NCBI GenBank assembly: GCA_913009825.1
Contig: CAJVYQ010000054.1
Coordinates: 1-36,686, forward strand
Direction: 5' to 3'
Length of the DNA: 36,686 bases
Origin: an uncultured Deferribacteres bacterium
GTDB taxonomy: Bacteria; Zhuqueibacterota; JdFR-76; DREG01
Position numbers and translations under genes: made by a program. Below, piece by piece: positions 3,068-28,095 of this stretch. The notes below the pieces were generated by a model that worked only from the letters and a program-made list of their open reading frames with translations, was not told the origin of the DNA and did no database searches. How positions within the stretch are numbered: the first letter of the stretch is position 1; each line of letters begins with the position of its first letter.

Positions 3068-3102
3068 CCCGAGGAACAAAATACGGCTAATTTTCTTTGC
3101 CT

Positions 3103-3142
3103 GTAAGTAAGGCGTTACGATTTTCTGTAATACCTCACTTAC
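3103..3142. repeat. Palindromic repeat unit, one arm repeated at 3371
   Basis: The arms 3103-3118 and 3127-3142 are complementary with three mismatches around an 8-base loop. The segment 3104-3127 recurs in direct orientation at 3371-3394 with two mismatches. It may also act as a terminator-like hairpin after the peptidase gene, although no T-run follows. Confidence 0.6.
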
Positions 3143-3394
3143 GGGTTGATAATAAAATGCAATCAGCGCTAAAAGATTCAAGTTCTGTTTACATCAGGTA
3201 TTTATATTGCTCATCTAATGTTCTGTAACCCCCAATAGCACACGGATTACGCGGATGACACAGATACACACGGATAAAATCTGTGAAAATCCGTGTCATC
3301 CGTGTCATCCGTGTGCTGTTTACTATTTTGGTTGAACAGATATAATAACATAAACAAATATTCACACCAATAAGTGAGGTGTTACGATTTTCTG
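3127..3394. repeat. Inverted-repeat element upstream of the trp promoter
   Basis: The outer ends (3128-3140 AATACCTCACTTA and 3371-3384) are inverted copies of each other. The interior holds a second inverted repeat built from the CCGTGTCATCCGTGT motif (about 3237-3316). No reading frame is present. The element ends about ten bases before the -35 box of the trp operon, so it supplies the sequence just upstream of that promoter. Confidence 0.55.
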
Positions 3395-3404
3395 AAAAAA
3401 AGTC

Positions 3405-3433
3405 TTGACTTTCATAAGGCCATTCCTTATTTT
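3405..3433 (+). promoter_or_regulatory. Sigma70-like promoter of the trp operon
   Basis: There is a TTGACT at 3405-3410 and a TATTTT at 3428-3433, separated by 17 bases. Transcription would begin near 3440, before the leader-peptide ribosome site (GGGA at about 3450). A TATAAT at 3442-3447 is also present but is too close to the leader start to be the main -10 box. Confidence 0.55.
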
Positions 3434-3456
3434 ATTCAAAATATAATTTGGGAAAA

Positions 3457-3543
3457 ATGATGCATTTCAATTCTTCATACAAAACTAAACGCAACAACTG
3501 GTGGTGGTACTATCTGCAGAGTGGGTTTTGCATGTTTGATTGA
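3457..3543 (+). CDS. trpL: trp operon leader peptide (TrpL-like), three tandem Trp codons
   Basis: This short frame encodes 28 residues, from ATG 3457 (a second ATG follows at once) to TGA 3541-3543. Codons 15-17 are TGG TGG TGG (3499-3507), preceded by two Asn codons and followed by two Tyr codons. Three adjacent Trp codons in a short frame just before a terminator and trpE are the hallmark of ribosome-mediated attenuation: scarcity of charged tRNA-Trp stalls the ribosome and favours an antiterminator. The peptide itself is not expected to have another role. The name is given by function and position, not by sequence similarity. Confidence 0.85.
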   Translation: MMHFNSSYKTKRNNWWWYYLQSGFCMFD

Positions 3544-3606
3544 AATCAGATAATTTTGTCATAGAATTTTATAAAGCCCGCTCATAGCAGCGGGCTTTTT
3601 ATTTGT
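3476..3606 (+). promoter_or_regulatory. trp attenuator: alternative RNA hairpins and terminator
   Basis: The terminator stem is AAAGCCCGCT (3573-3582) with AGCGGGCTTT (3589-3598), loop CATAGC, followed by a T-rich tract. Segment 2 (3519-3529, GAGTGGGTTTT) can pair with 3573-3583 through eleven pairs including two G-U wobbles, which would block the terminator. Segment 2 can instead pair with segment 1 (3476-3486 with 3524-3534, one mismatch). A ribosome stalled at the Trp codons (3499-3507) would cover segment 1 and free segment 2. All three pairings were worked out by eye from the bases. Confidence 0.82.
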
Positions 3607-3636
3607 ACAAAAGAATAAATTAGACAGGTATTCGAG

Positions 3637-5115
3637 ATGAAATTTGCAGAATTTAAAAAACTGGCCCAACCGGGCAAAATTGTTCCGGTTTTCCGCAAGC
3701 TAAATGCTGATTTTATCACGCCGGTCTCCGCTTACCTCAAACTGCGGGAAGACGGGAATTATTCATTTCTGCTGGAAAGCGTTATTAAAGGTGAACATTT
3801 GGGCCGTTACTCATTTATCGGATTTAACCCCTTCCGGGTGATTTCTATCCGGGGACAAAAAACAGTCATTAAGGAAATCAATTCAAACAGATACTCGGAA
3901 GAAAATTTTTTTCAATTATTACGATTACAGCTTTATGAGTATGAATCCGCCCAAATCGATGGCTTGCCGGCGTTTACCTGCGGCATGGTTGGATTTCTGG
4001 GCTATGATATGATTCATCACATCGAAATCCTGCCCAATTCAAATTTTGATCCGGTTAAAACCGAAGACGCAAAATTAGCCGCTTATCATAATATTGTTGC
4101 TTTCGATCATCTGAAGAATGAAGTGATTTTAATTGCAAATTCCTTTGTTCATCCGGAGTCGGATGTAACCCGGCTTTATAAAGATTCGGAAGACCGTTTG
4201 AATCAAATTCTGGATCGGTTAAACAGACGACTTTCTTATAACGGTCAATTTAAATTAGACTCCGCCAAATCCTCCAGCAACTTTAAACAGGCCGATTTTG
4301 AACAGGCTGTTAAAAAAGCAAAAGATTACATTTTAAGCGGCGATATTTTCCAGGTTGTTTTATCTCAGCGGTTTCAGATGGATTTTTCCGGGAACCCTTT
4401 TCAAATCTACAGGACTCTTCGCAACATTAATCCTTCTCCTTACATGTTTTATTTAGACATGGTTGATTATCAGCTCATCGGTTCTTCTCCGGAACCGCTG
4501 ATTCGATCAAACGCACAAGAGTTGGAAATTATTCCGATTGCAGGCACACGTCCTCGTGGGATCAACGATGAAGAAGATAAAAAATTAGCGGAAAATTTAT
4601 TAAACGATCCAAAAGAACTGGCGGAACATGTGATGTTGGTAGATCTGGCCAGAAACGATCTGGGGCGCGTATCAGAATTTGGCAGTGTGAAAGTTCACGA
4701 GTTTAAAACCATCGAACGATATTCTCATGTGATGCACCTCATCTCAAAAGTCAAATCGAAACTCAGGGAAGGGATCACTTCTGTGGAGGCCTTTAAAGCG
4801 GCATTTCCGGCCGGTACTGTTTCCGGCGCCCCTAAAATTCGGGCGATGGAAATCATCGATGAATTGGAACCTGATAAACGAGGCGTTTACGCCGGCGCGG
4901 TTGGTTATTTCGATTTTTCCGGGAATATGGATTTGTGTATTGCCATCCGGATGATTCTGGCAAAAGGCCAAAAGCTGTTTTTTCAGGCCGGCGCCGGAAT
5001 TGTTGCGGACAGCGATCCGGAAAAAGAATATGAAGAAACCGTCTATAAAGCTGTCGCTTTAAAGAAGGCAATCATCCAGGCTTCGGAGGGTATCCATGAT
5101 TTTATTTATCGATAA
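3637..5115 (+). CDS. trpE: Anthranilate synthase component I
   Basis: TrpE converts chorismate and ammonia (from the TrpG subunit) to anthranilate, the first committed step of tryptophan synthesis. The protein has 492 residues, normal for the family. Visible signatures are LLES (45-48), the conserved feedback-inhibition motif near the N-terminus, the chorismate-binding region with GSSPEPLIR and PIAGTRPRG, and GTVSGAPKIRAMEII near residue 392. It is the first structural gene after the attenuator, and its end overlaps trpG by 20 bases, which suggests translational coupling. The LLES motif implies allosteric inhibition by tryptophan as well as transcriptional attenuation. pabB is a less likely alternative given the full trp operon context. 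Confidence 0.97.
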   Translation: MKFAEFKKLAQPGKIVPVFRKLNADFITPVSAYLKLREDGNYSFLLESVIKGEHLGRYSFIGFNPFRVISIRGQKTVIKEINSNRYSEENFFQLLRLQLYEYESAQIDGLPAFTCGMVGFLGYDMIHHIEILPNSNFDPVKTEDAKLAAYHNIVAFDHLKNEVILIANSFVHPESDVTRLYKDSEDRLNQILDRLNRRLSYNGQFKLDSAKSSSNFKQADFEQAVKKAKDYILSGDIFQVVLSQRFQMDFSGNPFQIYRTLRNINPSPYMFYLDMVDYQLIGSSPEPLIRSNAQELEIIPIAGTRPRGINDEEDKKLAENLLNDPKELAEHVMLVDLARNDLGRVSEFGSVKVHEFKTIERYSHVMHLISKVKSKLREGITSVEAFKAAFPAGTVSGAPKIRAMEIIDELEPDKRGVYAGAVGYFDFSGNMDLCIAIRMILAKGQKLFFQAGAGIVADSDPEKEYEETVYKAVALKKAIIQASEGIHDFIYR

Positions 5116-5671
5116 TTACGATTCGTTCACCTACAATCTGGTAGATTATTTTGGCCGGTTTGAACCCAATTTAATGGTTGTGCGGAATGATAAAATTTCT
5201 AGTCAAAGAATTCGAAACTTAAAACCCCGGGGAATAGTCATCTCACCCGGCCCCGGCGTCCCGGAAAATGCGGGAATCTGTAACGAAGTAATCAAAAATT
5301 TTTACAAAGATATCCCAATTCTGGGCGTTTGTCTCGGGCACCAATGTATCGGTTCTGTCTTTGGCACGAAGATAAAAAGAGCCCCGGCGCCGGTTCATGG
5401 CAAAACAGCGGATATTTATCATCATTCTACAGGAATATTTTCAGACCTGCCCTCTCCATTCCAGGCAGCCCGCTATCATTCCTTAATGATTGATAAAACG
5501 ACTCTTTCAACCGAACTGGAAATTGTGGCCGAAACAGATGATAAAATCATCATGGGAATTCAACATAAAAGATATCCGGTAATCGGTGTGCAATTTCATC
5601 CGGAATCGATCTTGACCGGTTGTGGATTTAGTTTGCTTGAAAACTGGTTGAAAATGTTTGTTCGGCCATAA
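5096..5671 (+). CDS. trpG: Anthranilate synthase component II (glutamine amidotransferase)
   Basis: TrpG hydrolyses glutamine and passes ammonia to TrpE. The 191-residue protein has the class I amidotransferase layout: the FIDNYDSFTYNL start, an oxyanion region SPGPG, the nucleophile Cys79 in GVCLGHQ, and the catalytic His/Glu in QFHPES near residue 170. The start codon lies inside the end of trpE with GGAGGG six bases upstream. The family also serves p-aminobenzoate synthesis (PabA), so a shared role is possible, but its place in the operon points to tryptophan. Confidence 0.96.
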   Translation: MILFIDNYDSFTYNLVDYFGRFEPNLMVVRNDKISSQRIRNLKPRGIVISPGPGVPENAGICNEVIKNFYKDIPILGVCLGHQCIGSVFGTKIKRAPAPVHGKTADIYHHSTGIFSDLPSPFQAARYHSLMIDKTTLSTELEIVAETDDKIIMGIQHKRYPVIGVQFHPESILTGCGFSLLENWLKMFVRP

Positions 5672-5699
5672 ACTGTAACTAAGCAGAAGGAGATTTGAT

Positions 5700-6713
5700 A
5701 TGTTAAAAACTATTCTCGAAAAAGTCTCAGATGGGGACGACTTAACCCGAAACGAAGCAGCGGCGGCTTTGGAAACAATTGTCAGGGATGAAGCTTCGCC
5801 AACCGAGGTAGGGGGGCTCCTTATCGGCTTGCGGGTTAAAGGCGAAACGGAAGAAGAAATTTTAGGGTTTGTCGAAACTATGGAAAAATACATGGTAAAA
5901 GTTCATCTTCAGAATCAGGATGCCATCGATGTTTGTGGCACAGGGGGGGACGGCAAACATTCGTTTAATGTATCAACAACCACTGCCATCGTTGTAGCCG
6001 CAGAGGGAGTTTCTGTGGCAAAACATGGAAATCGCTCGGTTTCCGGTAGAACCGGATCTGCTGATCTTTTACAGGAATTGGGAGTTAAAATTGATTTGAA
6101 TGCCGATAAAGTGAAACAGTGTGTCGACGAAATCGGTATTGGCTTCTTTTTTGCGCCTCTCTTTCATCCGGCCATGAAAAATGTTGCTCTCCATCGCAAA
6201 AATCTTGGCCTGCGAACCGTCTTTAACATGTTGGGACCGTTGTTAAATCCTGCCCGGGTAAAAAGACAATTGATTGGCGCTTATGATTCTGAAACTGCAA
6301 AAAAACTTGCCGTGGTTTTAAAAATGCGCGGTTATACAAAAGCTTGTACTGTTCATAGTTTAGACGGATTTGACGAGGTGTCACCTTTTTCTCAAAATGA
6401 TATATTTGAAGTGAATAAAAATCTGAATGAAATTAAAACCTATCGATTTGAGAAACCCTACGGCAAATTTGGTTTGGATGAAATTACAGGAGATGATCAA
6501 AGAAAAAACGCCGGGATTACACTATCTGTGTTGGCAGGAGAAAAAAATGCTGCCCGGGAAATGGTTGTACTGAATTCCGGTTTTGCGTTTTATGTAGCCG
6601 GCAAGACAAACACGGTAGAAGATGGCATCCTTCTGGCGGAAAATGTCCTTGATAGCGGCGCGGCAAAACGGAAATTGGATCAGTTTGTGGAAATGAGTAA
6701 TCGTTTGAATTAA
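5700..6713 (+). CDS. trpD: Anthranilate phosphoribosyltransferase
   Basis: TrpD transfers the phosphoribosyl group of PRPP to anthranilate. The protein has 337 residues, typical of the free-standing enzyme. The PRPP-binding signature CGTGGDGKHSFNVST lies at about residues 79-93, followed by AKHGNRSVSGRTGSADLL and the HPAMKNV and MLGPLLNPA blocks. There is an AAGGAG ribosome site before the ATG and a 28-base gap from trpG. TrpG and TrpD are not fused here, unlike in E. coli. Confidence 0.97.
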   Translation: MLKTILEKVSDGDDLTRNEAAAALETIVRDEASPTEVGGLLIGLRVKGETEEEILGFVETMEKYMVKVHLQNQDAIDVCGTGGDGKHSFNVSTTTAIVVAAEGVSVAKHGNRSVSGRTGSADLLQELGVKIDLNADKVKQCVDEIGIGFFFAPLFHPAMKNVALHRKNLGLRTVFNMLGPLLNPARVKRQLIGAYDSETAKKLAVVLKMRGYTKACTVHSLDGFDEVSPFSQNDIFEVNKNLNEIKTYRFEKPYGKFGLDEITGDDQRKNAGITLSVLAGEKNAAREMVVLNSGFAFYVAGKTNTVEDGILLAENVLDSGAAKRKLDQFVEMSNRLN

Positions 6714-6809
6714 TGTTTGATCATGGAAATACACAGATTTTAACGGAGAAATATCACAATAATTTCCGTGTCATTCGGTGATCTTCCTTAGTTATGAATT
6801 GAGTTAACA

Positions 6810-7610
6810 ATGAATCTTTTAGAACAAATCGTTAAAAATAAAAAAAAAGAAGTTGCGGCAGCGAGGAGAAAAAAAACAAGTTCGCAGTTGATTATTGAAT
6901 CGGGAAGTGAACAACCCCGCCACAGTTTTTTCAGTTTGTTGAACGAAAAGAATGGTTTTCACTTCATTTGTGAAATTAAAAAAGCCTCGCCTTCCCAGGG
7001 AATGATTCGGGCAAATTTTGATCCCTGCAAACAAGCGCAGAATTATCTTGAAGGCGGCGCCTCCGCCATTTCGATTTTAACAGACGAGAAATATTTTCAG
7101 GGACATCTTGATCATCTCAAACAAGTTCGTAAAATTGTCTCACTGCCGGTTCTGAGAAAAGATTTTATCATCGATCCATATCAAATAATTGAATCGAAAG
7201 TTGCCGGCGCCGATATGATCTTGTTAATTTCCCGAATTCTCACCAAAAATCAGATTGCCGTGTTCAGAAATATGGCTTTGGCATTGAAATTAGATGTTCT
7301 GCTTGAAATTGCTGAAGAGAGAGAGTTGGAAAAAATCGATAATTTCGAAAACATGATCCTTGGTATAAACAACCGCAATCTGAAGACATTTGAAGTCGAT
7401 TTGAATAATTCTTTGACCATCAAAAAGGTCATCCCCCCGGTTGTGCCGACTGTCAGTGAAAGCGGCATTCAATCTGTTGATGATTGTCTATTGTTGGCAG
7501 AGAACGGTTTTCGGGGTGTATTGGTTGGCGAAACTTTGATGAGGGCGGGTAATCCCAGAGGGTTGTTACAAGAATGGAACAGGAAAATTAGTGATGTTTA
7601 CCCGGCTTAA
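6810..7610 (+). CDS. trpC: Indole-3-glycerol phosphate synthase
   Basis: TrpC closes the indole ring from carboxyphenylamino-deoxyribulose phosphate. The 266-residue protein has the family motifs CEIKKASPSQG (about residue 52), LTDEKYFQG, LRKDFIIDPYQI, GINNRNLKTF and SESGI. The gap from trpD is 96 bases, the longest inside the front part of the operon, and includes a short copy of the CCGTGTCATTCGG repeat motif (about 6763-6776). The ribosome site before the ATG is weak. The last 17-20 bases overlap trpF. Confidence 0.96.
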   Translation: MNLLEQIVKNKKKEVAAARRKKTSSQLIIESGSEQPRHSFFSLLNEKNGFHFICEIKKASPSQGMIRANFDPCKQAQNYLEGGASAISILTDEKYFQGHLDHLKQVRKIVSLPVLRKDFIIDPYQIIESKVAGADMILLISRILTKNQIAVFRNMALALKLDVLLEIAEERELEKIDNFENMILGINNRNLKTFEVDLNNSLTIKKVIPPVVPTVSESGIQSVDDCLLLAENGFRGVLVGETLMRAGNPRGLLQEWNRKISDVYPA

Positions 7611-8229
7611 AATTTGTGGTATTACCAATCTTGAGGATGCTTTAACCTGTATCCGTTATGGAGTAGATTTTCTTGGATTTAACTTTTATCCCGGCAGCCC
7701 AAGATACATCCCGCCGGAAGATGCAAAAAAAATCATCGGCCGACTGCCGTTTTACATTCAGACCGTTGGAATTTTGGTCCGGCCGGATTTTGAAAAAATA
7801 TGGGAAATTGTAAGAAATAGCGGAGTTTCTGCGGTTCAAATTTACGAGCCGGAGGGTGCGATCGATTTTACTAAAATTCCGGTTCCGGCCATATTAGGGC
7901 TGCGAATAGAAACTCAAATAAAAAAAATAGCCCGGACCGGCAATGTAACAATGGTTTTGGTCGATAGCTTTTCCTGCAAACAATTTGGCGGAACAGGAAA
8001 AACATTTGATTGGCACATGATTCCGGAAAATATTTTAACTGAGAAATTGATTTTGGCCGGCGGTATTCATGCGGAAAATATCGGCGACGCCTTAAACGAG
8101 ATCAATCCGGCCGTCATCGATGTGGCCAGCGGTTCTGAAAAATCTCCGGGCGTTAAAGATCCGCAAAAAATAAAAAAAATGATGCAAATAATAACCGAAC
8201 ACAATTTAGAAGCGATCCAAAATGAGTAA
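7594..8229 (+). CDS. trpF: Phosphoribosylanthranilate isomerase
   Basis: TrpF carries out the Amadori isomerisation of phosphoribosylanthranilate. The protein has about 211 residues in a TIM-barrel layout. It begins with TRLKICGIT, whose Cys is the usual general base, and contains [17 protein letters not shown], and the phosphate-binding [11 protein letters not shown] and VDVASGSE. The start is either GTG 7591 or ATG 7594; I prefer the ATG, with AGGA nine bases upstream. It overlaps trpC upstream and trpB downstream (8 bases), so translation is probably coupled. Confidence 0.95.
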
Positions 8230-9430
8230 TTGTCAAAATTATAACTTCCCGGATCAGAAAGGATATTTCGGAGAATTCGGCGGACAATTTGTGCCCGAGG
8301 TGTTACGGCCGGCGCTGACGGAATTGGAACAGGCCTATACAGAGTTGAAAAATTCTGCTGATTTTAAGGAAGAATTTCGCAACGATTTAAAATTTTATGC
8401 CGGCCGGCCGACGCCTCTCTATTTCGCTGAAAATTTAACCAATCATTTTCAACGAGCAAAGATTTATTTAAAACGGGAAGATTTAAATCACACCGGCGCT
8501 CATAAAATAAACAATACAATTGGTCAGATTCTGCTGGCAAAAAAAATAGGCAAGCGGAGGATTATAGCGGAAACGGGCGCCGGGCAGCACGGAGTAGCCA
8601 CCGCAACCGTTGCCGCACGCTCCGGTTTGCAGTGTTGTATTTACATGGGCGCCGGGGACGTTAAACGCCAGTATCTGAATGTCCAGAGAATGAAAATGTT
8701 GGGCGCGGAAGTTCGGACTGTTCACACTGGTACGAAAACATTGAAAGACGCAACCAACGAGGCCCTTCGGGATTGGCTAACCAATGTGAAAAATACCCAC
8801 TATATCATCGGCTCGGTTGTGGGGCCTCATCCGTTCCCAATGATTGTGCGGGATTTTCAGAAAGTAATCGGCGAAGAGGTAGAAAACCAGATTCAAGTTT
8901 TGGCAGGCAGGCTGCCTGATTACTTGCTTGCCTGTGTCGGCGGGGGCAGCAATGCTATCGGCCTGTTTTATTCCATGTTAAAATATAAGCAGATCAGAAT
9001 GATCGGAGTTGAGGCCGCCGGTTGCGGTATCGAATCTAAAAAACATGCTGCAACTTTGTCAACAGGCTCTCCGGGCGTTTTCCATGGTATGAAATCTTAC
9101 CTGTTGCAGGATGAAAACGGACAGATTAAATTGGCTCATTCCATTTCTGCAGGATTGGACTATCCGGGAGTAGGGCCGGAGCATAGTTTTCTGAAAGATC
9201 AGACCCGTGTTCAATATTTTTCCGTCTCTGACAAACAGGCCATAGCAGCTTCATTTTTACTGAGCCGGTTAGAGGGGATCATCCCTGCTTTAGAGAGCGC
9301 TCATGCTCTGGCATTTCTGGAAAATTTAGTGCCAAAAACTTCTGACAGCGAGATCGTGATTGTGAATCTGAGTGGCCGGGGAGATAAGGATATGGCAACG
9401 TTTGGACGGTTTTTCACGGAATATAGATAA
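8222..9430 (+). CDS. trpB: Tryptophan synthase beta chain
   Basis: TrpB joins indole and serine to tryptophan using pyridoxal phosphate. The 402-residue protein is of the standard TrpB1 type: it starts with [13 protein letters not shown], the PLP lysine is Lys95 in GAHKINN, and Glu117 in AETGAGQHG is the catalytic acid. The phosphate-binding loop GGGSNAIG and the C-terminal SGRGDKD are present. It overlaps the end of trpF by 8 bases. An inverted-repeat element sits between this gene and trpA, so the usual tight trpB-trpA coupling is broken here. Confidence 0.97.
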
Positions 9431-9432
9431 AA

Positions 9433-9564
9433 CCTCAATTGAGCGATTCTATACTTAAGACAACCACCCAAAGAGTGAAATGTCATTCGGTAGGAATCTT
9501 GTTAATTTGTTGCTAAGATTTAAAAAGATTCCTACCGAATGACATGAGAATCGCTTAATTTAAG
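9433..9564. repeat. MITE-like element, family CAATTGAGCGATTCT, copy 1
   Basis: The ends 9433-9450 and 9547-9564 form imperfect terminal inverted repeats (CCTCAATTGAGCGATTCT against AGAATCGCTTAATTTAAG). An inner inverted pair, GTCATTCGGTAGGAATCTTG and AAAGATTCCTACCGAATGAC, allows the whole element to fold back. Related copies lie at 10617-10745 and 30841-31009. It has no coding capacity and lies inside the trp operon between trpB and trpA. Confidence 0.8.
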
Positions 9565-9640
9565 TAAAATTTTTATCTGCCGGGAAAAAAGTTTTTTATG
9601 GTTTCGGTTAGTACAAACCATGAAAACAAGACAGGAAAAA

Positions 9641-10432
9641 ATGAGTAAAAAACTGATTGCATTACTTGAAACAAAAAAAGAAAAAGGAGAAAAGCTCCTT
9701 TCTATTTTTATTACGGCCGGATTTCCTGATCCGGATGCCTGCGTAGAAATTATTTTAATACTGGCTGAGGCCGGCATCGATTTTCTGGAACTCGGGCTGC
9801 CTTTTTCTGATCCCATCGCAGACGGCCCTGTGATTCAATCCGTTTCACAACAGGTTCTTGAACAGGGATTTGAAATTGCGCAGATTTTTGATATCGTACA
9901 ACAGGTTCGAAAATGCTCCCCAATTCCAATCCTGATTATGGGATATTTGAATCCTTTGTTTCACATGGGGATTCCGGCTTTTTTGAAGCGGACTCATTCC
10001 GCGGGCGCAGATGGATTGATTATTCCGGATTGGCCTCCCGAAGAATCGCTGAATTATTTACCTTTATTACAATCATTGGATTTAGATCTGATCCATTTAA
10101 TTGCACCCAATACTCCCCGTGCGAGAATCCGGGAAATCGATGCTTTAACTACTGCGTTTTTATATTGTGTTGCTTACACCGGGGTTACCGGCCGGAGCAA
10201 TCAAATGCCGGCAGATACGCGCAATTTTTTCTGTCAATTAAAAAAGAATGTTGTGAAACCCCTGATCATTGGATTCGGCGTGAAGAACCGGGAGGAGTTT
10301 ATTAATTTTTCCCAATATGCAGATGGTGTCATTATTGGTTCCGCTTTTCTTGAGTTGATAAAGCGAACCGACCCGGGAGAACGAAAAAACGCTGTAGAAA
10401 AATTTGTGCAAAGTGTTTTGAGCAAACGGTAA
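9641..10432 (+). CDS. trpA: Tryptophan synthase alpha chain
   Basis: TrpA splits indole-3-glycerol phosphate to indole, which is channelled to TrpB. From ATG 9641 it has 263 residues. The catalytic residues are Glu50 (LELGLPFSDP) and Asp61 (IADGP), and the phosphate-binding GFGVKNREE and GVIIGSAF are present. I chose 9641 over the in-frame ATG at 9620 because AGGA lies about six bases before it, while 9620 has no ribosome site. The gap from trpB is 210 bases, mostly the MITE-like element, so trpA may depend on readthrough or its own promoter. Confidence 0.95.
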   Translation: MSKKLIALLETKKEKGEKLLSIFITAGFPDPDACVEIILILAEAGIDFLELGLPFSDPIADGPVIQSVSQQVLEQGFEIAQIFDIVQQVRKCSPIPILIMGYLNPLFHMGIPAFLKRTHSAGADGLIIPDWPPEESLNYLPLLQSLDLDLIHLIAPNTPRARIREIDALTTAFLYCVAYTGVTGRSNQMPADTRNFFCQLKKNVVKPLIIGFGVKNREEFINFSQYADGVIIGSAFLELIKRTDPGERKNAVEKFVQSVLSKR

Positions 10433-20522: not shown

Positions 20523-20581
20523 AACCTAAAGTATTATTGTATTTATAGCCTCGCTGTATTATGTTCAATTTGAGGAATAGC

Positions 20582-22258
20582 ATGAAAAGAGACCTGACCG
20601 CTTTAAGCGATACAGAATTTGATTTGGTGATTATCGGCGGCGGCATTTATGGCGCCGCTGCAACGTGGGACGCGGCATTGCGCGGATTGAATGTAGCGCT
20701 GATCGAGAGAAACGATTTCGGCGGCGCAACTTCATCCAACAGCCTGAAAATTATCCATGGCGGATTGCGCTATATTCAGCAGGCGGATGTGAAACGGATG
20801 CGTGAGTCTATCCGTGAGCGGCGGATTCTGATGACAATCGCACCCCATCTGGTGCACCCCATGCCCTGTGTAATGCCGCTATACGGTCATCTGGGCAAGG
20901 GACCGGAAGTGATGCGCATCGCCATGCTTATCAACGATCTGGTGGGATTCGACCGGAACCGCATCGATGATCCGCAAAAAATATTGCCCAACGGCGGTGT
21001 GATTTCCCGGCAGGAATGTTTACAAATTCTGCCGGGCGTCAAAGAAGATAATCTTACCGGGGGAGCGTTGTGGTACGACTGCCACGTCCATAGTTCGGAA
21101 CGGCTGTTGATCTCCTACCTCCGTTCCGCCGCGGAAGCGGGCGCACAGGCAGCAAATTATATTGGCGCCGAAAAGATGCTTTTGAAGGACAACCATGTCA
21201 TCGGCGTGGAGGCAAAAGACCGGCTGACCGGCGAACGGTTTCGAATTCGCAGTAAACTTGTGCTCAACACATCCGGTCCCTGGGTGAACGAGACCATGAA
21301 TATGATCCGCAACGGCACCGGCGAGGAGGAGGTCAAACTTTCCTGGGCGATGAACATGGTAACGCGCAAACTGTTTGATGAATATGCCGCGGGCGTTTCC
21401 GGCCGGATCAAAATCAGAGAAAACAATCGATTGGTAGATAAGGGAAGCAAGGTTTATTTCATCACGCCGTGGCGGGAATATTCGCTGGTCGGAACCGTGC
21501 ATCGTCCTTATTCCGGCAAACCCGATGAATTTGCCATCAAAGAATCTTTCATTCACGATTTTATCCGCGCTGTGAACGAAGCCATCCCCGGTAATCCGTT
21601 GAAGCGGGAGGATGTCTCCTTTTTTTACGGCGGCCTGCTGCCTATGGACAGGCCCAACCCCAAGAACGGCGAGGTCATTCTGACCAAACATTACAAAATC
21701 AAAGATCATGCGCAGAGCGATGGCATCGAAGGAATGATTTCTGTTATTGGCGTGAAATACACTACTGCGCGGGATGTGGGTAAAAAAACTGTGGATTATG
21801 TGCTGAAGAAACTGGGTGCGGCGCACAAAGAATCGGAGACGGAAAATAAAAGAGTCTTTGGCGGCAGCATTGACCGGTTTGATGAATTTAAACAGAAAAC
21901 CATGGCGGAATGGAAGCAGCGGCTGCCGGAAGCAGTGCTGCTGCAGATGGCCTTTAACTACGGCTCGGAAATTTCCCGAGTGCTGAAATACGGCGAAGAG
22001 AATCCCGATTATCTGAAGCCCATTTCCGGCACCGCCGTGCTGCCGGCGGAAATTATTCATGCGGTGAGGGAGGAGATGGCGCTTCACCTCACCGATGCTC
22101 TGTGGCGGCGCACCGAGCTGGGCTCAGCCGGAAATCCCGGCGACACCGTACTGCAATCCGTCGCTGAATTTATGGGTAAAGAGTTGGGATGGAATAAAGA
22201 AACAATTGCCGCGGAAGTAGCGGCGGCAAAAAGTATTTATGTGCCGGCGGAGGGGTGA
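20582..22258 (+). CDS. glpD: FAD-dependent glycerol-3-phosphate dehydrogenase
   Basis: This oxidises sn-glycerol-3-phosphate to dihydroxyacetone phosphate at the membrane, passing electrons to quinone. From ATG 20582 it has 558 residues, in the range of GlpD. The dinucleotide-binding motif is IIGGGIYGAA (17-26), followed by RGLNVALIERNDFGGATSSN, KIIHGGLRYIQ and the substrate region FITPWREYSLVGT. The start is chosen because GAGG lies six bases before it; an ATG at 20561 lacks a ribosome site. No glpK or glpF is nearby. A hairpin-forming element follows the stop. Confidence 0.95.
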   Translation: MKRDLTALSDTEFDLVIIGGGIYGAAATWDAALRGLNVALIERNDFGGATSSNSLKIIHGGLRYIQQADVKRMRESIRERRILMTIAPHLVHPMPCVMPLYGHLGKGPEVMRIAMLINDLVGFDRNRIDDPQKILPNGGVISRQECLQILPGVKEDNLTGGALWYDCHVHSSERLLISYLRSAAEAGAQAANYIGAEKMLLKDNHVIGVEAKDRLTGERFRIRSKLVLNTSGPWVNETMNMIRNGTGEEEVKLSWAMNMVTRKLFDEYAAGVSGRIKIRENNRLVDKGSKVYFITPWREYSLVGTVHRPYSGKPDEFAIKESFIHDFIRAVNEAIPGNPLKREDVSFFYGGLLPMDRPNPKNGEVILTKHYKIKDHAQSDGIEGMISVIGVKYTTARDVGKKTVDYVLKKLGAAHKESETENKRVFGGSIDRFDEFKQKTMAEWKQRLPEAVLLQMAFNYGSEISRVLKYGEENPDYLKPISGTAVLPAEIIHAVREEMALHLTDALWRRTELGSAGNPGDTVLQSVAEFMGKELGWNKETIAAEVAAAKSIYVPAEG

Positions 22259-22730: not shown

Positions 22731-23312
22731 TTAATAAGTTCCAAGTATCTTTCCGGCCAACTCTTCGGCCGCTTCCTGCGTTGCTTTGCTCAACGCTTTA
22801 ACCACGAAAAGAGGATTTCTCTTTTCTGCGGGAACCTTTTTTGAGATACTGCCCCGCCATAGAAGTTGTCCGTCTTTTGTCCGAAATATGCTCACATCCA
22901 TTTTAAGCAAGCCAAACCATCTGTCTCCTTCTCTCCATTCCACAAATTTATGGATGGTTCCTCTGACAAAAATATCGCTGGTTTGCGTTGCCGGAAGCTG
23001 AAGAACGGCGGAGAAACGATTGGATGCTTTCAGATAATCCCCAATTGCACCATTAATCATGGTTGCCGGATTTGTTGCCCATCTGTGGTAGTGGTAAAAT
23101 TGGATTTCATATTCCGAATACTGAATGGCAATGGCGGGATTTGTAAAAACCGGATCTATTTTGAACGGATAAATGCCAACTTTAACAGGCGACGGTGTTT
23201 TGGACACACTCCCGTTTTTTGGATGAAGCAGATACAGGTTGGTTTGCGGCGTACCTGCGCAGTCGATGATCAAAAGAATTGCAAACAGCCAAAACCATTT
23301 TTTGTTATTCAT
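22731..23312 (-). CDS. ABC-type transport auxiliary lipoprotein (PqiC/YmbA-like)
   Basis: The protein has 193 residues: a basic start, a hydrophobic stretch and Cys18 in LLIIDCAG, so probably a lipoprotein although Asp at -1 is atypical. The body has the layout of the ABC-transporter auxiliary lipoproteins (PqiC/YmbA type) found with MCE systems: YLLHP near the N-terminus, VKVGIYPFKI, a TSDIFVRGTIHKFVEW strand, and an amphipathic C-terminal helix VVKALSKATQEAAEELAGKI. It is the last gene of the run, 11 bases after the MlaD-like gene, and would act at the outer membrane end of the lipid path. The family call is by position and pattern. Confidence 0.68.
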   Translation of the reverse strand: MNNKKWFWLFAILLIIDCAGTPQTNLYLLHPKNGSVSKTPSPVKVGIYPFKIDPVFTNPAIAIQYSEYEIQFYHYHRWATNPATMINGAIGDYLKASNRFSAVLQLPATQTSDIFVRGTIHKFVEWREGDRWFGLLKMDVSIFRTKDGQLLWRGSISKKVPAEKRNPLFVVKALSKATQEAAEELAGKILGTY

Positions 23313-23323
23313 GTCAAAATCTC

Positions 23324-24226
23324 CTATTTATCCGGAATGAACCGTGGTTTGGGTTCGGATTTTCTGATCAGATTCCACGGGCGTTCACGAATACTGCGGC
23401 TGAATTCTTCAAAATTGTAGGTGGATCTTTCCAGACTGTTCAAAATGGATTGGTAAGTGTCGGAATTGGACAGTACCATGTCGTCCAACGACTGCAGGGA
23501 ATTGCGGGTTTGCGTGAGCAGATTTTTGGATTCGATGAGCGTGGAGTCCAGATGACTCATCAGTCTTTTTGTTACCAGTTCATTATCAAAAATCAGCGTG
23601 TCCAATCTGGAAGTGATTCTGACAAAATCACGGCTCAGTGCTTCCATGTTGGCGAGCAATTGTTCAAAATGTCTGGCGTTTGCGCCCATGATTTGATCGA
23701 TATTGGCCAGAATGCCGGTGAGATATTTCTGATTTTCCACGCCTAACATTTTGTTAATCCGGACGATGGTGGTTTCTGCCGAGACCGCCATATTGCCCAT
23801 CAGATTGGATATTTCCGTGAATGTGGTGGTTCTCAGTGCGGGAATCATGCCGCCCGAAGGCAGCAGTTCCGCATCCGGAGAACCGGGATTCACTTCAATA
23901 TAAAACTCCCCAAGCAGCCCCAGCGAGGTGAGATACGCTTTTGAATCTTTTTTAATGGGCGTTTTTGCATTAACTTCCAGCACAAGAGTTATAGTTTTTG
24001 CATTCTCCTCCGGAAAAATCACGGAAGAAATTTTGCCTATTTTAACGCCGCCAAAACGCACCGGTGTGCCCACCTCGAGACCGCCAACGTAAGGTAACCT
24101 GGTGGTGTACGTAACGGTTTCTTTTTTGAAATCGATGCCGGATATAATGAAAATGAAGAAGATGAAAAGTAGAAGTGAAAAAACCACCATCAGACCAACT
24201 TTTACTTCTTGTAATCGGTAATTCAT
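23324..24226 (-). CDS. MCE-family lipid-binding protein (MlaD-like)
   Basis: This 300-residue protein has one N-terminal membrane helix (about 10-31) and one MCE domain (about 36-115) with YVGGLEVGTPVRFGGVKIGK and GLLGEFYIEVNPG, then a long helical C-terminal region. In the Mla system, MlaD forms a hexameric ring that carries phospholipid between the inner-membrane ABC transporter and periplasmic partners. The long helical tail is similar to MCE proteins that form tunnels. It lies between the ATPase gene (15 bases upstream) and the lipoprotein gene. Direction of lipid flow cannot be told from sequence. Confidence 0.93.
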   Translation of the reverse strand: MNYRLQEVKVGLMVVFSLLLFIFFIFIISGIDFKKETVTYTTRLPYVGGLEVGTPVRFGGVKIGKISSVIFPEENAKTITLVLEVNAKTPIKKDSKAYLTSLGLLGEFYIEVNPGSPDAELLPSGGMIPALRTTTFTEISNLMGNMAVSAETTIVRINKMLGVENQKYLTGILANIDQIMGANARHFEQLLANMEALSRDFVRITSRLDTLIFDNELVTKRLMSHLDSTLIESKNLLTQTRNSLQSLDDMVLSNSDTYQSILNSLERSTYNFEEFSRSIRERPWNLIRKSEPKPRFIPDK

Positions 24227-24241
24227 GAATACCTCTTTTGA

Positions 24242-25042
24242 TTAACCGGAAATTTCCGACGTTAAATTTTGTAAAAAGGTTTCTCTGTCCACTTTATCTT
24301 TATCAGGTTCTCTATGCAAAAATTGCTGAATGAAAGAATGCGGATTGTTTTCAATCTCCGCGCGCGTTCCCACTGCTAATATCTGTCCCTCGTTCATCAT
24401 GGCGATCCGGTCGGCGATGAGGAAAACGGAAGCCATTTCATGGGTCACTACAACCATGGTCATTTTAAATGCCTGCTTCAGTTTCAACAGTAATTGATCG
24501 ATGCCGGCTGCGACGATGGGATCGAGCCCTGCGGACGGTTCATCACAGAAAAGGATTTCAGGATCCATGGCGATTGCCCGGGCCAGTCCGGCCCGTTTCC
24601 GCATGCCGCCGGATAGCTGCGCCGGGTTGAATCCCTCAAATCCGCCCAGTCCTACCAGGTCCAGCTTCATGCGTGTCATGATGCTGATGGTCGATTCTTC
24701 CAGATCGGTATGCTCCCGCAGCGGGAGAGCAACATTGTCTGCGATGGACATGGAATTGAAAAGCGCCCCGTTTTGAAAAAGCATGCCGATCCGTTTCAAG
24801 ACTTCTGTTTTTTTATCCTCATTTAGCTTTGGGATATTTTTCCCCTTGATTAATATTTCTCCAGAACCCGGTTGGTTGAGTCCTATCATGTGACGCAGCA
24901 GTGTGCTTTTTCCACAGCCGGAGCGACCCAGGATTGCGATGGTTTCGTTTTCATAAATGGTCAGATTGATCCCTTTTAAAACATGGGCGCGGCCATAGTA
25001 GGTGTGCAGCTCTTTAATTTCAATGATAGGTTTCTTATCCAT
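24242..25042 (-). CDS. MCE-system ABC transporter ATPase (MlaF-like)
   Basis: The 266-residue ATPase has Walker A GRSGCGKST (39-47), a Q-loop near residue 90, signature LSGGMRKRAGLARA (143-156) and Walker B ILFCDEP (163-169) followed by SAGLDP and the H-loop in VVVTHE. LSGGMRKR is typical of the MlaF/Ttg2A group. It powers the permease encoded three bases upstream and begins almost directly after it, so they are co-translated. A C-terminal extension of about 30 residues may contact partner proteins, as in MlaF. Confidence 0.95.
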   Translation of the reverse strand: MDKKPIIEIKELHTYYGRAHVLKGINLTIYENETIAILGRSGCGKSTLLRHMIGLNQPGSGEILIKGKNIPKLNEDKKTEVLKRIGMLFQNGALFNSMSIADNVALPLREHTDLEESTISIMTRMKLDLVGLGGFEGFNPAQLSGGMRKRAGLARAIAMDPEILFCDEPSAGLDPIVAAGIDQLLLKLKQAFKMTMVVVTHEMASVFLIADRIAMMNEGQILAVGTRAEIENNPHSFIQQFLHREPDKDKVDRETFLQNLTSEISG

Positions 25043-25045
25043 CTG

Positions 25046-25855
25046 CTACAAGGTTGAGTAAAACAATCCGGTAAAAAGTACGTTGGCTGCAATGATCATA
25101 AAAATGGAGGTGACCACTGAAGTTGTGGTTCGTTTGCCTACACCCTCGGCGCCGCCGGAGACAGAAAAACCCTGGTAACAGCCGATTGTCGCTACCAGCA
25201 GGGCAAAAACGCCGCTTTTGATCAATCCGGTGAGAAAATCTTTTAGCACCAGCGCCCGGGTCGTTTCGTTAAAATAGAGCCAGAAATCGATATGTTCGCT
25301 GAATATTCCCACAAATAAACCACCCAGGATACCGACAAAATCGGCGATGAGCGTCAGGCTGGGCAGCATGATCATCATGGATAAAACCCGCGGTACGGCA
25401 AGGTAGGGGATGGGGTTCAGACCCATGGTCCTCAGCGCATCGATCTCTTCGGAAACTTTCATTGTGCCCAACTCTGCGGCAATGGCGGAGCCGCTGCGAC
25501 CGGCAAGAACGATGGCAGTAAGCATGGGACCCAGTTCCCGGGTGACGGAAACGCCTACCAGGTCCGCCATGTAAATGGATGCGCCGAAAGGTTTCAACTG
25601 GTAAGCCGCCTGCATCCCCAAAATGATGCCGATAAAGAAGGCAATCGTGGCCACAATGGGGATCGAATCCACGCCAAACCGCACCATCTGAATAATGGTG
25701 GATCGAAAGCGGATTTTATGACCTTTCAATGGGGCGGCAGCCATCCAGTACAATGTTTGACCCACAAGCCGGGTATATTGGTCGATTTCCCACAATCCTT
25801 TCAGGGTTTTGCGGCCAATAGTGGCAAAGAAATTATTCAACAGATTTGATTTCAT
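25046..25855 (-). CDS. MCE-system ABC transporter permease (MlaE-like)
   Basis: This 269-residue integral membrane protein of the MlaE/permease family has about five or six hydrophobic helices. The family motif EIDALRTMGLNPIPYLAVPR is present, as are LVGVSVTRELGPMLTAIVLAGRSGSAIAAELGTM and TTTSVVTSIFMIIAANVLFT. It starts 112 bases after the STAS gene. No ribosome site is obvious at the chosen start; no better start is evident. Together with the neighbouring ATPase and MCE protein it completes an Mla-type inner-membrane transporter. Confidence 0.94.
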   Translation of the reverse strand: MKSNLLNNFFATIGRKTLKGLWEIDQYTRLVGQTLYWMAAAPLKGHKIRFRSTIIQMVRFGVDSIPIVATIAFFIGIILGMQAAYQLKPFGASIYMADLVGVSVTRELGPMLTAIVLAGRSGSAIAAELGTMKVSEEIDALRTMGLNPIPYLAVPRVLSMMIMLPSLTLIADFVGILGGLFVGIFSEHIDFWLYFNETTRALVLKDFLTGLIKSGVFALLVATIGCYQGFSVSGGAEGVGKRTTTSVVTSIFMIIAANVLFTGLFYSTL

Positions 25856-25967
25856 CGAAAAAGTGTCACGTTCGTTCTAATTTCCAAATTCTGATTACCC
25901 GAATTTTCTTGTTTTTTGCAAACTTTGCGGATATTAACGGCAAAGATTTGAATCATTACAAAAAAAT

Positions 25968-26321
25968 TTACGGAATCAATTGATTCCTTTGTAATTGTTC
26001 AACGCTCTCATGAATAGAAAAAACAGAATCCAGTCTGCTCAGTTCGAATACTTCCCGGACCATGGGGGTGAGACCGGTTATATAAAAATTGCCTTTATAT
26101 TTTTCAATCAATTGCAGTCCTTCTACCAGGGTGGCAACACCCGAGCTATCCATGTACGAAACTTTGCTCAAATCTATGACAATGGTCGGCAGTTTGGCTT
26201 GGGTCAGAGGAATCAATTGTTTTCTGAATTTCGGTGATGAGTAGAGATCTACTTCACCGCAAAGAGAGATAACCACATAATTTTGATTCCGGTTGATTTC
26301 TATTTCAAGAGTGCTTGTCAT
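25968..26321 (-). CDS. STAS-domain anti-anti-sigma factor (SpoIIAA/RsbV-like)
   Basis: The 117-residue protein is a single STAS domain. The phosphorylation site motif is DSSG (58-61) in SKVSYMDSSGVATLVEG, and the C-terminal helix VFELSRLDSVFSIHESVEQL is characteristic. In partner switching the serine is phosphorylated by a cognate RsbW-type kinase and released by a PP2C phosphatase. The start overlaps the kinase gene by 17 bases, so the two are coupled. It is next to mlaE, and Mla systems include a STAS subunit, MlaB, so this protein could bind the transporter. MlaB does not need phosphorylation; that link is inference. Confidence 0.92.
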   Translation of the reverse strand: MTSTLEIEINRNQNYVVISLCGEVDLYSSPKFRKQLIPLTQAKLPTIVIDLSKVSYMDSSGVATLVEGLQLIEKYKGNFYITGLTPMVREVFELSRLDSVFSIHESVEQLQRNQLIP

Positions 26322-26754
26322 TCTTTTCGCTTCTTTTTTTTATTAAGATGAGTTTGTTTCCCGGCTTATAATTTTGATCAAAAATCACTTCATCCATCAG
26401 AGAACGCATCAGATGAATCCCCAAACCTCCGGGACGAACATCTCCTAATTCTCTCGGTTTGATTTTTTCCGGCGCTACTTTTATACCATTATCCCGCAGT
26501 TCAATTTGAATTCTTTCGCTGCTGGGATAAATATCCAGATAAATGAAATGGTTCGGTTCATCTTTGTAAGCATGGTTAATAATATTCGCACAAGCTTCAT
26601 TGGTAGCTAACAGGACAGCCTGTATTGTGTGTTCTTGGAAATCAAACATCCGTCCGACGGCCTCCAAAACAGAGCGCACTATCTTTAAATATCGAGCATT
26701 ACTCGGAATTCTTAACGAAACATTCCGGTATTTTTCGTCTGTTTTTTCGGGCAA
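26305..26754 (-). CDS. RsbW/SpoIIAB-like serine kinase, anti-sigma-type
   Basis: The 149-residue protein is a GHKL-fold (HATPase_c) kinase of the RsbW type. The N-box NEACANIINHAY is at 52-63, the G1 box DNGI at 88-91, and the G2 box PGGLGIHLM at 108-116. It would phosphorylate the STAS protein encoded downstream, and in other systems binds a sigma factor. No sigma factor gene is in the window, so the target is unknown. The gene overlaps the STAS gene and follows the phosphatase gene by 33 bases. Confidence 0.92.
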   Translation of the reverse strand: MPEKTDEKYRNVSLRIPSNARYLKIVRSVLEAVGRMFDFQEHTIQAVLLATNEACANIINHAYKDEPNHFIYLDIYPSSERIQIELRDNGIKVAPEKIKPRELGDVRPGGLGIHLMRSLMDEVIFDQNYKPGNKLILIKKRSEKNDKHS

Positions 26755-26787
26755 ATCGATTCCTCTGTTTTGTGGACAATGACCGAA

Positions 26788-28095
26788 TCAGCACCATTTT
26801 AACGCAACAAGCGTAATATCATCATGCTGCTCGGCGGATTCTGTAAATTTATCGATTTCTTTTTTTGCCTGTGTGATTAATTGCTCGGGCGATTGCCACT
26901 TCTTATGCAGAAACCGGATGAACCGTTCCAGACTCATTTCCCTTTTTTGAGTGTCCCGCGCTTCAATAATGCCGTCGGTAAAAAATATGATATAATCGCC
27001 ATGTTCCAATTGAATGGAGCTTTTTTGATACTCGATCGATTTTTTTATGCCCAATGGAATGTTGGATGCCCTGGCAATTTTTTCCACCTGCTTTCCCTTG
27101 TTTCTGATGCGTAGCAGCGGAAGATGACCTGCATTAACAAAAACAAATTCGCCCGTGTCGGCATTTAAAATAGTCCCAACAAAAGTGACAAACATCCCCT
27201 GATGACTTCTTTCTACCAGAGCGTCGTTTAACTTATCCACAGCTTGATTTACGGAGGTGCTCACGTTAGCATACAGGTGAAAGTCACTGAGAAGCCGGGC
27301 CATGTAGAGCGCTGCCGGGATCCCTTTGCCGGAGACATCGCCAAAGGCAATTCCTACGTGTTTATTATCTAAAATCAAAAAATCATAAAAATCACCGCCA
27401 ATGGTTTTTGCCGGCTGGTAAGCGGCAAAAATTTCAAAACGATGCTTGGGGCAGAGAAGTTGAGATTTGGGCAAAAAGCTTTGTTGAATGGTTTGCGCAG
27501 ATTTTAGCTGCTGCTGGAATCGTTCCTTTTCCAGGCTTTCTTTGTAAAGCCGGGCATTTTCAATGGCCATAGCCACGCTGCTGCAAAATGTGGAAAAAAG
27601 GCCGATATCGGATTCATCAAATGGAGAAAGATCTTTACGGTTAATAACTTCCGCAACGCCAATCAGTTTCTCTCTGACTTTCAGCGGCGCCGCCAGAATA
27701 CTCCGGGTCCGGAAACCTGTAAGTTTGTCCCCTTTCTGAAAAAAACGGGGGTCACTGGGCGCATCCGGAACGTTGAGCGGTTGCCGGTGTTGAGCCACCC
27801 ATCCGGCTATCCCCTGGCCGATTTCCACCGATATCTTTTCCTTTAATTCATCGGTGGTATCCACAATGGAGTCATCTTTTTCGCCCAGTGCAGATTGAAC
27901 CTCAAGCCGGTTCGTTGCCGGGTTCAAAAGAAATACGGAACTGGCTTCCGCATGCATGACTTCCTGGGTTTTCTCCAGTACTAAACGGATCACCTCGTTC
28001 AAATCCAAAACAGAATTGATGATCGTGCTGATCTCAATCAACATGCTGAGATCTTCCGCTTTTTTTTTCAGTTGCCGGATTTCTCTGTCAGACAT
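26788..28095 (-). CDS. GAF-domain SpoIIE/PP2C serine phosphatase
   Basis: This 435-residue protein has a short N-terminal coiled coil (about 1-22), a GAF sensor domain (about 15-185), a linker helix and a SpoIIE-type PP2C domain (about 200-435). Phosphatase motifs include GGDFYD (233-238), GDVSGKG (252-258), VNAGHLPLL, FFTDGIIEA and HDDITLVA near the end. It is expected to dephosphorylate the STAS protein in response to a signal bound by GAF. It is the first gene of the minus-strand run and has a promoter candidate upstream. Confidence 0.93.
   Translation of the reverse strand: MSDREIRQLKKKAEDLSMLIEISTIINSVLDLNEVIRLVLEKTQEVMHAEASSVFLLNPATNRLEVQSALGEKDDSIVDTTDELKEKISVEIGQGIAGWVAQHRQPLNVPDAPSDPRFFQKGDKLTGFRTRSILAAPLKVREKLIGVAEVINRKDLSPFDESDIGLFSTFCSSVAMAIENARLYKESLEKERFQQQLKSAQTIQQSFLPKSQLLCPKHRFEIFAAYQPAKTIGGDFYDFLILDNKHVGIAFGDVSGKGIPAALYMARLLSDFHLYANVSTSVNQAVDKLNDALVERSHQGMFVTFVGTILNADTGEFVFVNAGHLPLLRIRNKGKQVEKIARASNIPLGIKKSIEYQKSSIQLEHGDYIIFFTDGIIEARDTQKREMSLERFIRFLHKKWQSPEQLITQAKKEIDKFTESAEQHDDITLVALKWC

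Follow-up and report, generated by a model that had tools for sequence, protein, structure and literature searches.

A partner-switching module kept beside Mla-type lipid transporter genes suggests a phospho-switchable transporter in several bacterial phyla

A stretch of 36,686 nucleotides from an uncultured Deferribacteres bacterium (GTDB lineage Zhuqueibacterota; contig CAJVYQ010000054.1 of assembly GCA_913009825.1), called the window below, encodes at positions 22731-28095 a GAF-domain serine phosphatase, an RsbW-type serine kinase and a STAS protein ahead of MlaE-, MlaF- and MlaD-like lipid transporter genes and an auxiliary gene (Table 1). We found that at least three phyla keep the kinase and STAS genes, often together with the phosphatase gene, beside the genes of an Mla-type lipid transporter. 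The locus probably specifies a phospho-switchable Mla transporter, in which the STAS protein would take the place of MlaB and the linked kinase and phosphatase would act as its switch.

The conservation of the arrangement was analyzed in the window's own genome and 58 relatives (59 genomes). A STAS orthologue scoring at least 88 bits was identified in 38 of these, the own genome included, and a separate search for close MlaE orthologues (at least 57% identity) returned the identical 38 genomes, so that no genome was found with one orthologue and without the other. The remaining 21 genomes yielded either weaker MlaE matches only (18 genomes) or none at all (three). All 38 loci carry rsbW, the STAS gene, mlaE and mlaF in this order on one strand, and mlaD is next in 36; the contig ends first in the other two. 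The order on which an earlier note on this DNA had been built is thus not unique to its contig but recurs in 38/38 loci of the phylum and in loci of two other phyla, and because it is conserved, chance placement is excluded. Within the stretches examined, no separate STAS, RsbW or SpoIIE gene was detected at E 1e-3 in 60 other MlaE loci (20 + 40) of the same genomes, which served as controls and represent part of the non-orthologous MlaE places in the genome set. A plasmid search with MlaE gave distant matches only (<60% identity). The control locus from the window's own genome (L129, contig C13, 4725-5153) is a 147-residue MlaE-like frame, the sole other MlaE match in that genome, and is either a fragment or a divergent paralogue.

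Other phyla were searched with a 20-row STAS alignment as the query, counting matches at E 1e-28 as strong. Strong matches were found in 3 of 16 Latescibacterota genomes, two of which carry the phosphatase, rsbW, STAS, mlaE and mlaF genes in this order. Among 79 Planctomycetota genomes there were 11 with strong matches: rsbW, STAS and mlaE are consecutive in seven, with mlaF following in four of them, while the other four comprise one with STAS and mlaE only, one with the order mlaE, mlaD, mlaF, STAS, and two in which the STAS gene stands without mlaE. A contig scan with a single sequence gave 10 loci, the informative ones being L040, which we take from its record name to be Candidatus Latescibacterota, and L041 (Phycisphaeraceae), which we assign to Planctomycetota on the assumption of established taxonomy. 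As a separate observation, positions 3937-4624 of L167 (Planctomycetota) hold two consecutive STAS genes, the first with the motif DSAG and the second with DSSG; neither mlaE nor a kinase gene was found beside them.

The STAS protein of the window carries the acceptor motif D58-S59-S60-G61, in which S59, matched by the D-[ST] motif, occupies the position of the SpoIIAA/RsbV phosphoserine and of T52 in Escherichia coli MlaB. The earlier note described it as a phosphorylatable (DSSG) protein, and the motif is invariant in 39/39 STAS proteins (the 38 loci of the phylum plus L040), and DSSG is also present in the mla-linked STAS proteins of other-phylum loci. The protein passed the anti-sigma factor antagonist model TIGR00377 (93.3 bits; cut-off 53.45). 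In structure comparisons, its AlphaFold2 model (predicted local distance difference test score 93) matched SpoIIAA/RsbV proteins with Z 18-19, including RsbV of the RsbV/RsbW complex 6m36 (Z 18.3, root-mean-square deviation 1.1 over 101 residues), and Pseudomonas aeruginosa MlaB with Z 13.0 (deviation 2.0 over 97 residues). Model and motif together confirmed a STAS fold with a serine at the T52-equivalent position. Because the model matches SpoIIAA/RsbV better than MlaB, we view the STAS factor as an RsbV-type protein in MlaB's genomic company and propose it as a putative switchable MlaB equivalent.

The rsbW gene adjoins the STAS gene in 38/38 loci of the phylum, and the two genes share a 17-nt overlap in the window. 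Kinase residues E53, N57, D88, G90, G110 and G112 of the N, G1 and G2 boxes are invariant (39/39). With no variation in 39/39 at either these ATP-site positions or the acceptor serine, phosphorylation seems to have been kept. The G2 box has the form RPGG[LF]G in 38/39 linked kinases and in 0/11 of the unlinked comparison kinases shown, and the window kinase scored under both listed equivalog cut-offs for RsbW anti-sigma B factors (NF003144, 73.4 against 145; TIGR01924, 56.2 against 155). A phosphatase gene lies upstream of rsbW in 26/38 loci; none was counted in L056 and L064, where the contig ends. All 27 aligned phosphatases, 26 from this phylum and that of L040, retain D235, D253, D374, D425 and D426, which we take to be the metal ligands of the SpoIIE domain, and the GAF domain is presumably the input of the enzyme. 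Loci without a linked phosphatase gene retain the kinase-STAS-mla core, and in eight of the 10 that are not cut by a contig end an intact putative DNA polymerase I gene, recognized by eye with no family search, lies directly upstream of rsbW. Because phosphatase linkage varies and the rest is constant, the kinase, the STAS protein and the transporter form the fixed core of the arrangement.

Features of MlaF track the presence of a stand-alone STAS gene. In E. coli, MlaB binds at the MlaF helical subdomain (Kolich et al. 2020, PMC7367683), and MlaF has a C-terminal extension of ~25 residues, three of which (Y261, L265 and L266) engage the MlaF-MlaB groove belonging to the neighboring subunit; T52 of MlaB is near the center of the interface, and a T52E substitution weakens MlaF binding. 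In the tail of the window MlaF, FLQNLT occupies the position that YHADLL has in E. coli. Tails of at least 15 residues were found in 36/37 MlaF proteins from the loci of the phylum (the switch-type rows), in 2/2 from Latescibacterota, in 4/4 from Planctomycetota and in E. coli. L054 was dropped from these rows as its MlaF is cut by the contig end, and the count of 36/37 is conservative because L073 was scored as lacking a tail even though its MlaF sequence is broken into two frames close to the end of a contig. A strict [YF]x3[LI]-hydrophobic tail motif is present in 30/37 switch-type, 2/2 Latescibacterota and 4/4 Planctomycetota proteins and in E. coli, but in 0/56 other MlaF proteins, L119, L129, L182 and L195 having no usable MlaF C-terminus among the 60 controls. 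In addition, I121, M122 and M125 of the window MlaF form a hydrophobic patch at the positions of E. coli 123, 124 and 127 in the helical subdomain. All three positions are hydrophobic in 37/37 switch-type and 6/6 other-phyla proteins, compared with 0/46 STAS-less MlaF (L182, which misses only its C-terminus, was kept here) and 0/11 MlaF encoded beside STAS-fused MlaE. The finding that 45/46 STAS-less proteins have at least one charge at these positions suggests that they are on the surface. Judged from the alignments, tail and patch are candidate docking sites for the STAS protein, the patch being placed by subdomain and not from crystal coordinates. Because the proteins compared are related by descent, this difference counts as a between-lineage correlation in three phyla and not as dozens of independent events. 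Both features would be expected of an MlaF that binds STAS, and together with the STAS-MlaE fusions of sister lineages they tend to speak against the option, named in the earlier note, that the STAS protein binds only a sigma factor or kinase.

A second way of tying STAS to the transporter was identified in 12 of the 60 control loci, from 12 genomes of the same phylum (L117-L128), where MlaE is 364-376 residues long and has an N-terminal STAS-like domain. This domain was recognized from the translations by a D-[ST]-[AS]-G motif, and 5/12 copies match the STAS model with E 1e-3 as the threshold; five of the 12 genomes also hold a switch-type locus. Trees were built on chosen loci, with 22/38 switch loci and, in the 65-row MlaE tree, a sample of 19 STAS-less MlaE. 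The switch-linked, STAS-fused, Planctomycetota and Latescibacterota MlaE proteins fell into a single clade (99/96); the 19 STAS-less MlaE lay outside it, as did E. coli MlaE, whose branch is long and whose place is unsure. Because all STAS-associated MlaE share this clade, the association of the MlaE lineage with STAS is old. Within it, the fused MlaE joins the switch-type MlaE in a group with support of 97/95; it appears to be a sister solution that dispenses with the kinase. The STAS tree was poorly resolved and did not cleanly separate linked from unlinked proteins (two changes), with the Planctomycetota rows L167 and L171 lying among the linked ones. Linked kinases were grouped in the RsbW tree with weak support (75/60), which makes it, weakly, compatible with one origin of these kinases.

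In the mechanism that we propose, unphosphorylated STAS would dock on the MlaF helical subdomain in MlaB's place, with the tail of the second MlaF subunit holding it there, and would keep the ATPase assembled and active, activating or stabilizing the transporter as MlaB does. The RsbW-type kinase would phosphorylate S59 and may also sequester unphosphorylated STAS. Phospho-STAS would be unable to dock and transport would stop, by analogy with the T52E form of E. coli MlaB (PMC7367683). The GAF-SpoIIE phosphatase, in response to some ligand or stress, would then remove the phosphate and turn transport on. The earlier note's suggestion of lipid transport switched by serine phosphorylation is supported by these results, the switch itself being a prediction. 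On balance, we also lean toward a broader statement: that an ATP-binding cassette (ABC) lipid transporter may be under the direct, non-transcriptional control of a serine kinase and a phosphatase dedicated to its STAS subunit, that this partner switch with an ABC ATPase as its output would be old enough to occur in three phyla, and that un-switched MlaB and STAS-fused MlaE would be simplified forms of it.

Several observations weigh against the phospho-switchable transporter. The STAS protein is nearer to RsbV/SpoIIAA than to MlaB by sequence and by fold, and it failed the MlaB equivalog model NF033618 (23.9 bits against 90). One Latescibacterota locus, L176 (about 2499-4545), has the phosphatase, rsbW and STAS genes with no mlaE after them and so indicates that the partner-switch module can stand alone; it is possibly a module with another target or a relic. 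STAS and mlaE occur without an adjacent mlaF in the Phycisphaera-type loci L165, L172, L174 and L177. Of the 10 genomes whose loci have no adjacent phosphatase gene, only five encode a GAF-SpoIIE relative at another place (E 1e-60 or better), two of these relatives showing 43-45% identity over nearly the full length. Long MlaF tails also occur in 6/56 other loci, and L131 and L133 have an E. coli-like GPI long tail with no adjacent STAS gene and no Y-x3-L motif. The patch is not identical in E. coli MlaF, which has S123, T124 and M127. MlaF proteins encoded beside STAS-fused MlaE have neither the tail (0/11) nor the full patch, and since the MlaF rows of one phylum are not independent, Fisher values for the tail contrast overstate the case and are not taken as probabilities here. 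Finally, T52A is reported to be non-functional in E. coli though MlaB stays bound (Kolich et al., PMC7367683, citing Thong 2016).

An ordinary sigma-directed partner switch could also account for the module, with RsbW holding a sigma factor encoded elsewhere, the STAS protein and phosphatase releasing it, and the mla genes being co-transcribed or part of the regulon. The RsbW/RsbV type of the kinase and STAS protein fits this idea, as do eight sigma-70-family matches in the own genome to the SigBFG model (TIGR02980); the earlier note's statement that no sigma factor gene is present is true of the locus, but the genome does contain such genes. Among the sigma matches listed, however, none comes closer than 10 kb to any switch locus, and 0/10 sigma loci examined have a neighboring RsbW or STAS gene. 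None of the 59 genomes exceeded the curated SigBFG cut-off, a weak point because that cut-off passes only 1/14 control genomes, and all 59 give matches below it; with a model too broad below its cut-off and a cut-off that passes 1/14 controls, this test decides little. A sigma switch would also leave the MlaF tail and patch and the STAS-MlaE fusions unexplained, and we consider it unlikely.

In classical partner switching (SpoIIAB/RsbW), the kinase binds the regulated target. Along these lines, the kinase might act directly on MlaF or MlaE, inhibiting the transporter until STAS relieves it, or it might be a mere scaffold for a STAS protein that is a constitutive MlaB-like subunit. The constant adjacency of the kinase gene and the dispensability of the phosphatase at the locus agree with these options, but the invariant ATP-site residues and acceptor serine (39/39) and the position of the MlaF patch, in the subdomain where MlaB binds, weigh against them, and we judge them quite improbable. 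Neutral linkage, that is, an ancient operon inherited without a functional connection, finds some footing in the MlaE tree: the MlaE proteins of the sampled switch loci are a single lineage (75/82), and vertical descent thus accounts for some of the conservation. The order nevertheless holds across three phyla and among diverged proteins (MlaE 37-72% identity) while upstream genes change, and the gene overlaps and MlaF surface features speak further against this explanation, which we regard as very unlikely indeed.

All parts of the phospho-switchable transporter belong to known families; what we did not find in the open literature is an Mla-type transporter whose STAS subunit has a kinase and a phosphatase dedicated to it. 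No description of the arrangement was found in open PubMed Central literature, including with partner switching and MlaE combined, subscription journals and preprints being outside this scope. The locus shares with E. coli MlaFEDB (PMC7367683) the MlaE, MlaF and MlaD components, a small STAS protein whose aspartate is followed by a hydroxyl residue (T52 there, S59 here) and the MlaF C-terminal handshake tail. Unlike MlaB, the window STAS is RsbV-like and 117 residues long, shows in the model an additional strand and helix at the C-terminus and carries DSSG instead of DTGG; its gene precedes mlaE and comes with kinase and phosphatase genes of its own, no mlaC was identified among the locus genes, and a PqiC-type auxiliary gene follows. 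With the Bacillus RsbU-RsbV-RsbW and SpoIIAA-SpoIIAB-SpoIIE switches it has in common a PPM phosphatase, a GHKL kinase and a STAS antagonist with a phosphoserine motif, but no sigma gene lies in the window locus, its order is phosphatase-kinase-STAS, the G2 box of the linked kinases reads RPGG[LF]G (38/39), and the operon runs on into the Mla transporter. The STAS-fused MlaE is a sister lineage of the window MlaE that likewise ties STAS to the transporter and keeps the acceptor Ser/Thr, whereas its STAS is covalent, no kinase or phosphatase is nearby and its MlaF has no tail. The chimeric Mla-Pqi system Mpc of Brucella (PMC12436622) is kin to both Mla and Pqi, as the window's MlaEFD with a PqiC-type gene appears to be; the abstract portion of that report does not mention a phospho-switch. 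In its available portion, the study of Kolich et al. (PMC7367683) left phosphoregulation of MlaB undetermined, suggesting T52 phosphorylation and naming no kinase. The loci described here are a natural system that pairs a STAS subunit with a candidate kinase and phosphatase, and therefore the idea of MlaB phosphoregulation becomes testable with defined proteins. If the proposal is true, partner switching would have an output other than transcription, and there would be a hint of the way in which outer-membrane lipid traffic in poorly studied phyla responds to signals.

Open reading frames and Pfam profiles of the window proteins agree with the seven genes and the single strand claimed in the earlier note. 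Its term "lipoprotein gene" stands as to family, but the protein reads IIDC and has no strictly canonical lipobox; the strict pattern is matched by 13/32 copies of this auxiliary protein. The window MlaE passes TIGR00056 (250.4 bits; cut-off 212.2). MlaF (NF008809, 213.1 against 441) and MlaD (TIGR04430, 77.9 against 135) are below their equivalog cut-offs and, by these scores, are relatives of the Proteobacteria equivalogs and not members. There is no mlaC among the seven genes; MlaA and MlaC were not searched for elsewhere in the genome.

Table 1. Predicted genes of the transporter locus in the window, in order of transcription.
Gene or product	Position	Strand	Profile match
GAF-SpoIIE (PPM-type) serine phosphatase, predicted	26788..28095	-	PF07228 6e-47, PF01590 2e-20
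RsbW/SpoIIAB-type GHKL serine kinase, TTG start	26305..26754	-	PF13581 (HATPase_c_2) 1e-26
STAS protein, RsbV/SpoIIAA-type, 117 aa	25968..26321	-	PF01740 9e-22; TIGR00377 93.3 bits
mlaE, MlaE-type lipid ABC permease	25046..25855	-	PF02405 1e-81; TIGR00056 250.4 bits
mlaF, MlaF-type ATPase	24242..25042	-	PF00005 (ABC_tran) 3e-32
mlaD, MlaD/MCE-domain protein, 300 aa	23324..24226	-	PF02470 8e-19
ABC_trans_aux (PqiC-type) lipoprotein-family component	22731..23312	-	PF03886 3e-12

The STAS and mlaE genes overlap or abut (gap of 0 or less) in 27/39 loci and are within 14 nt of each other in 33/39. The 112-nt gap in the window is atypical among the 39 loci, and a weak inverted repeat is found in this gap region at the STAS stop. 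A glycerol-3-phosphate dehydrogenase gene (20561-22258) converges on the mla operon of the window, and because it also adjoins the operon in L051 and L064, the neighborhood is kept in near relatives. Farther away, at 3637-10432, a run of genes resembles tryptophan biosynthesis, as judged by eye from the translations.

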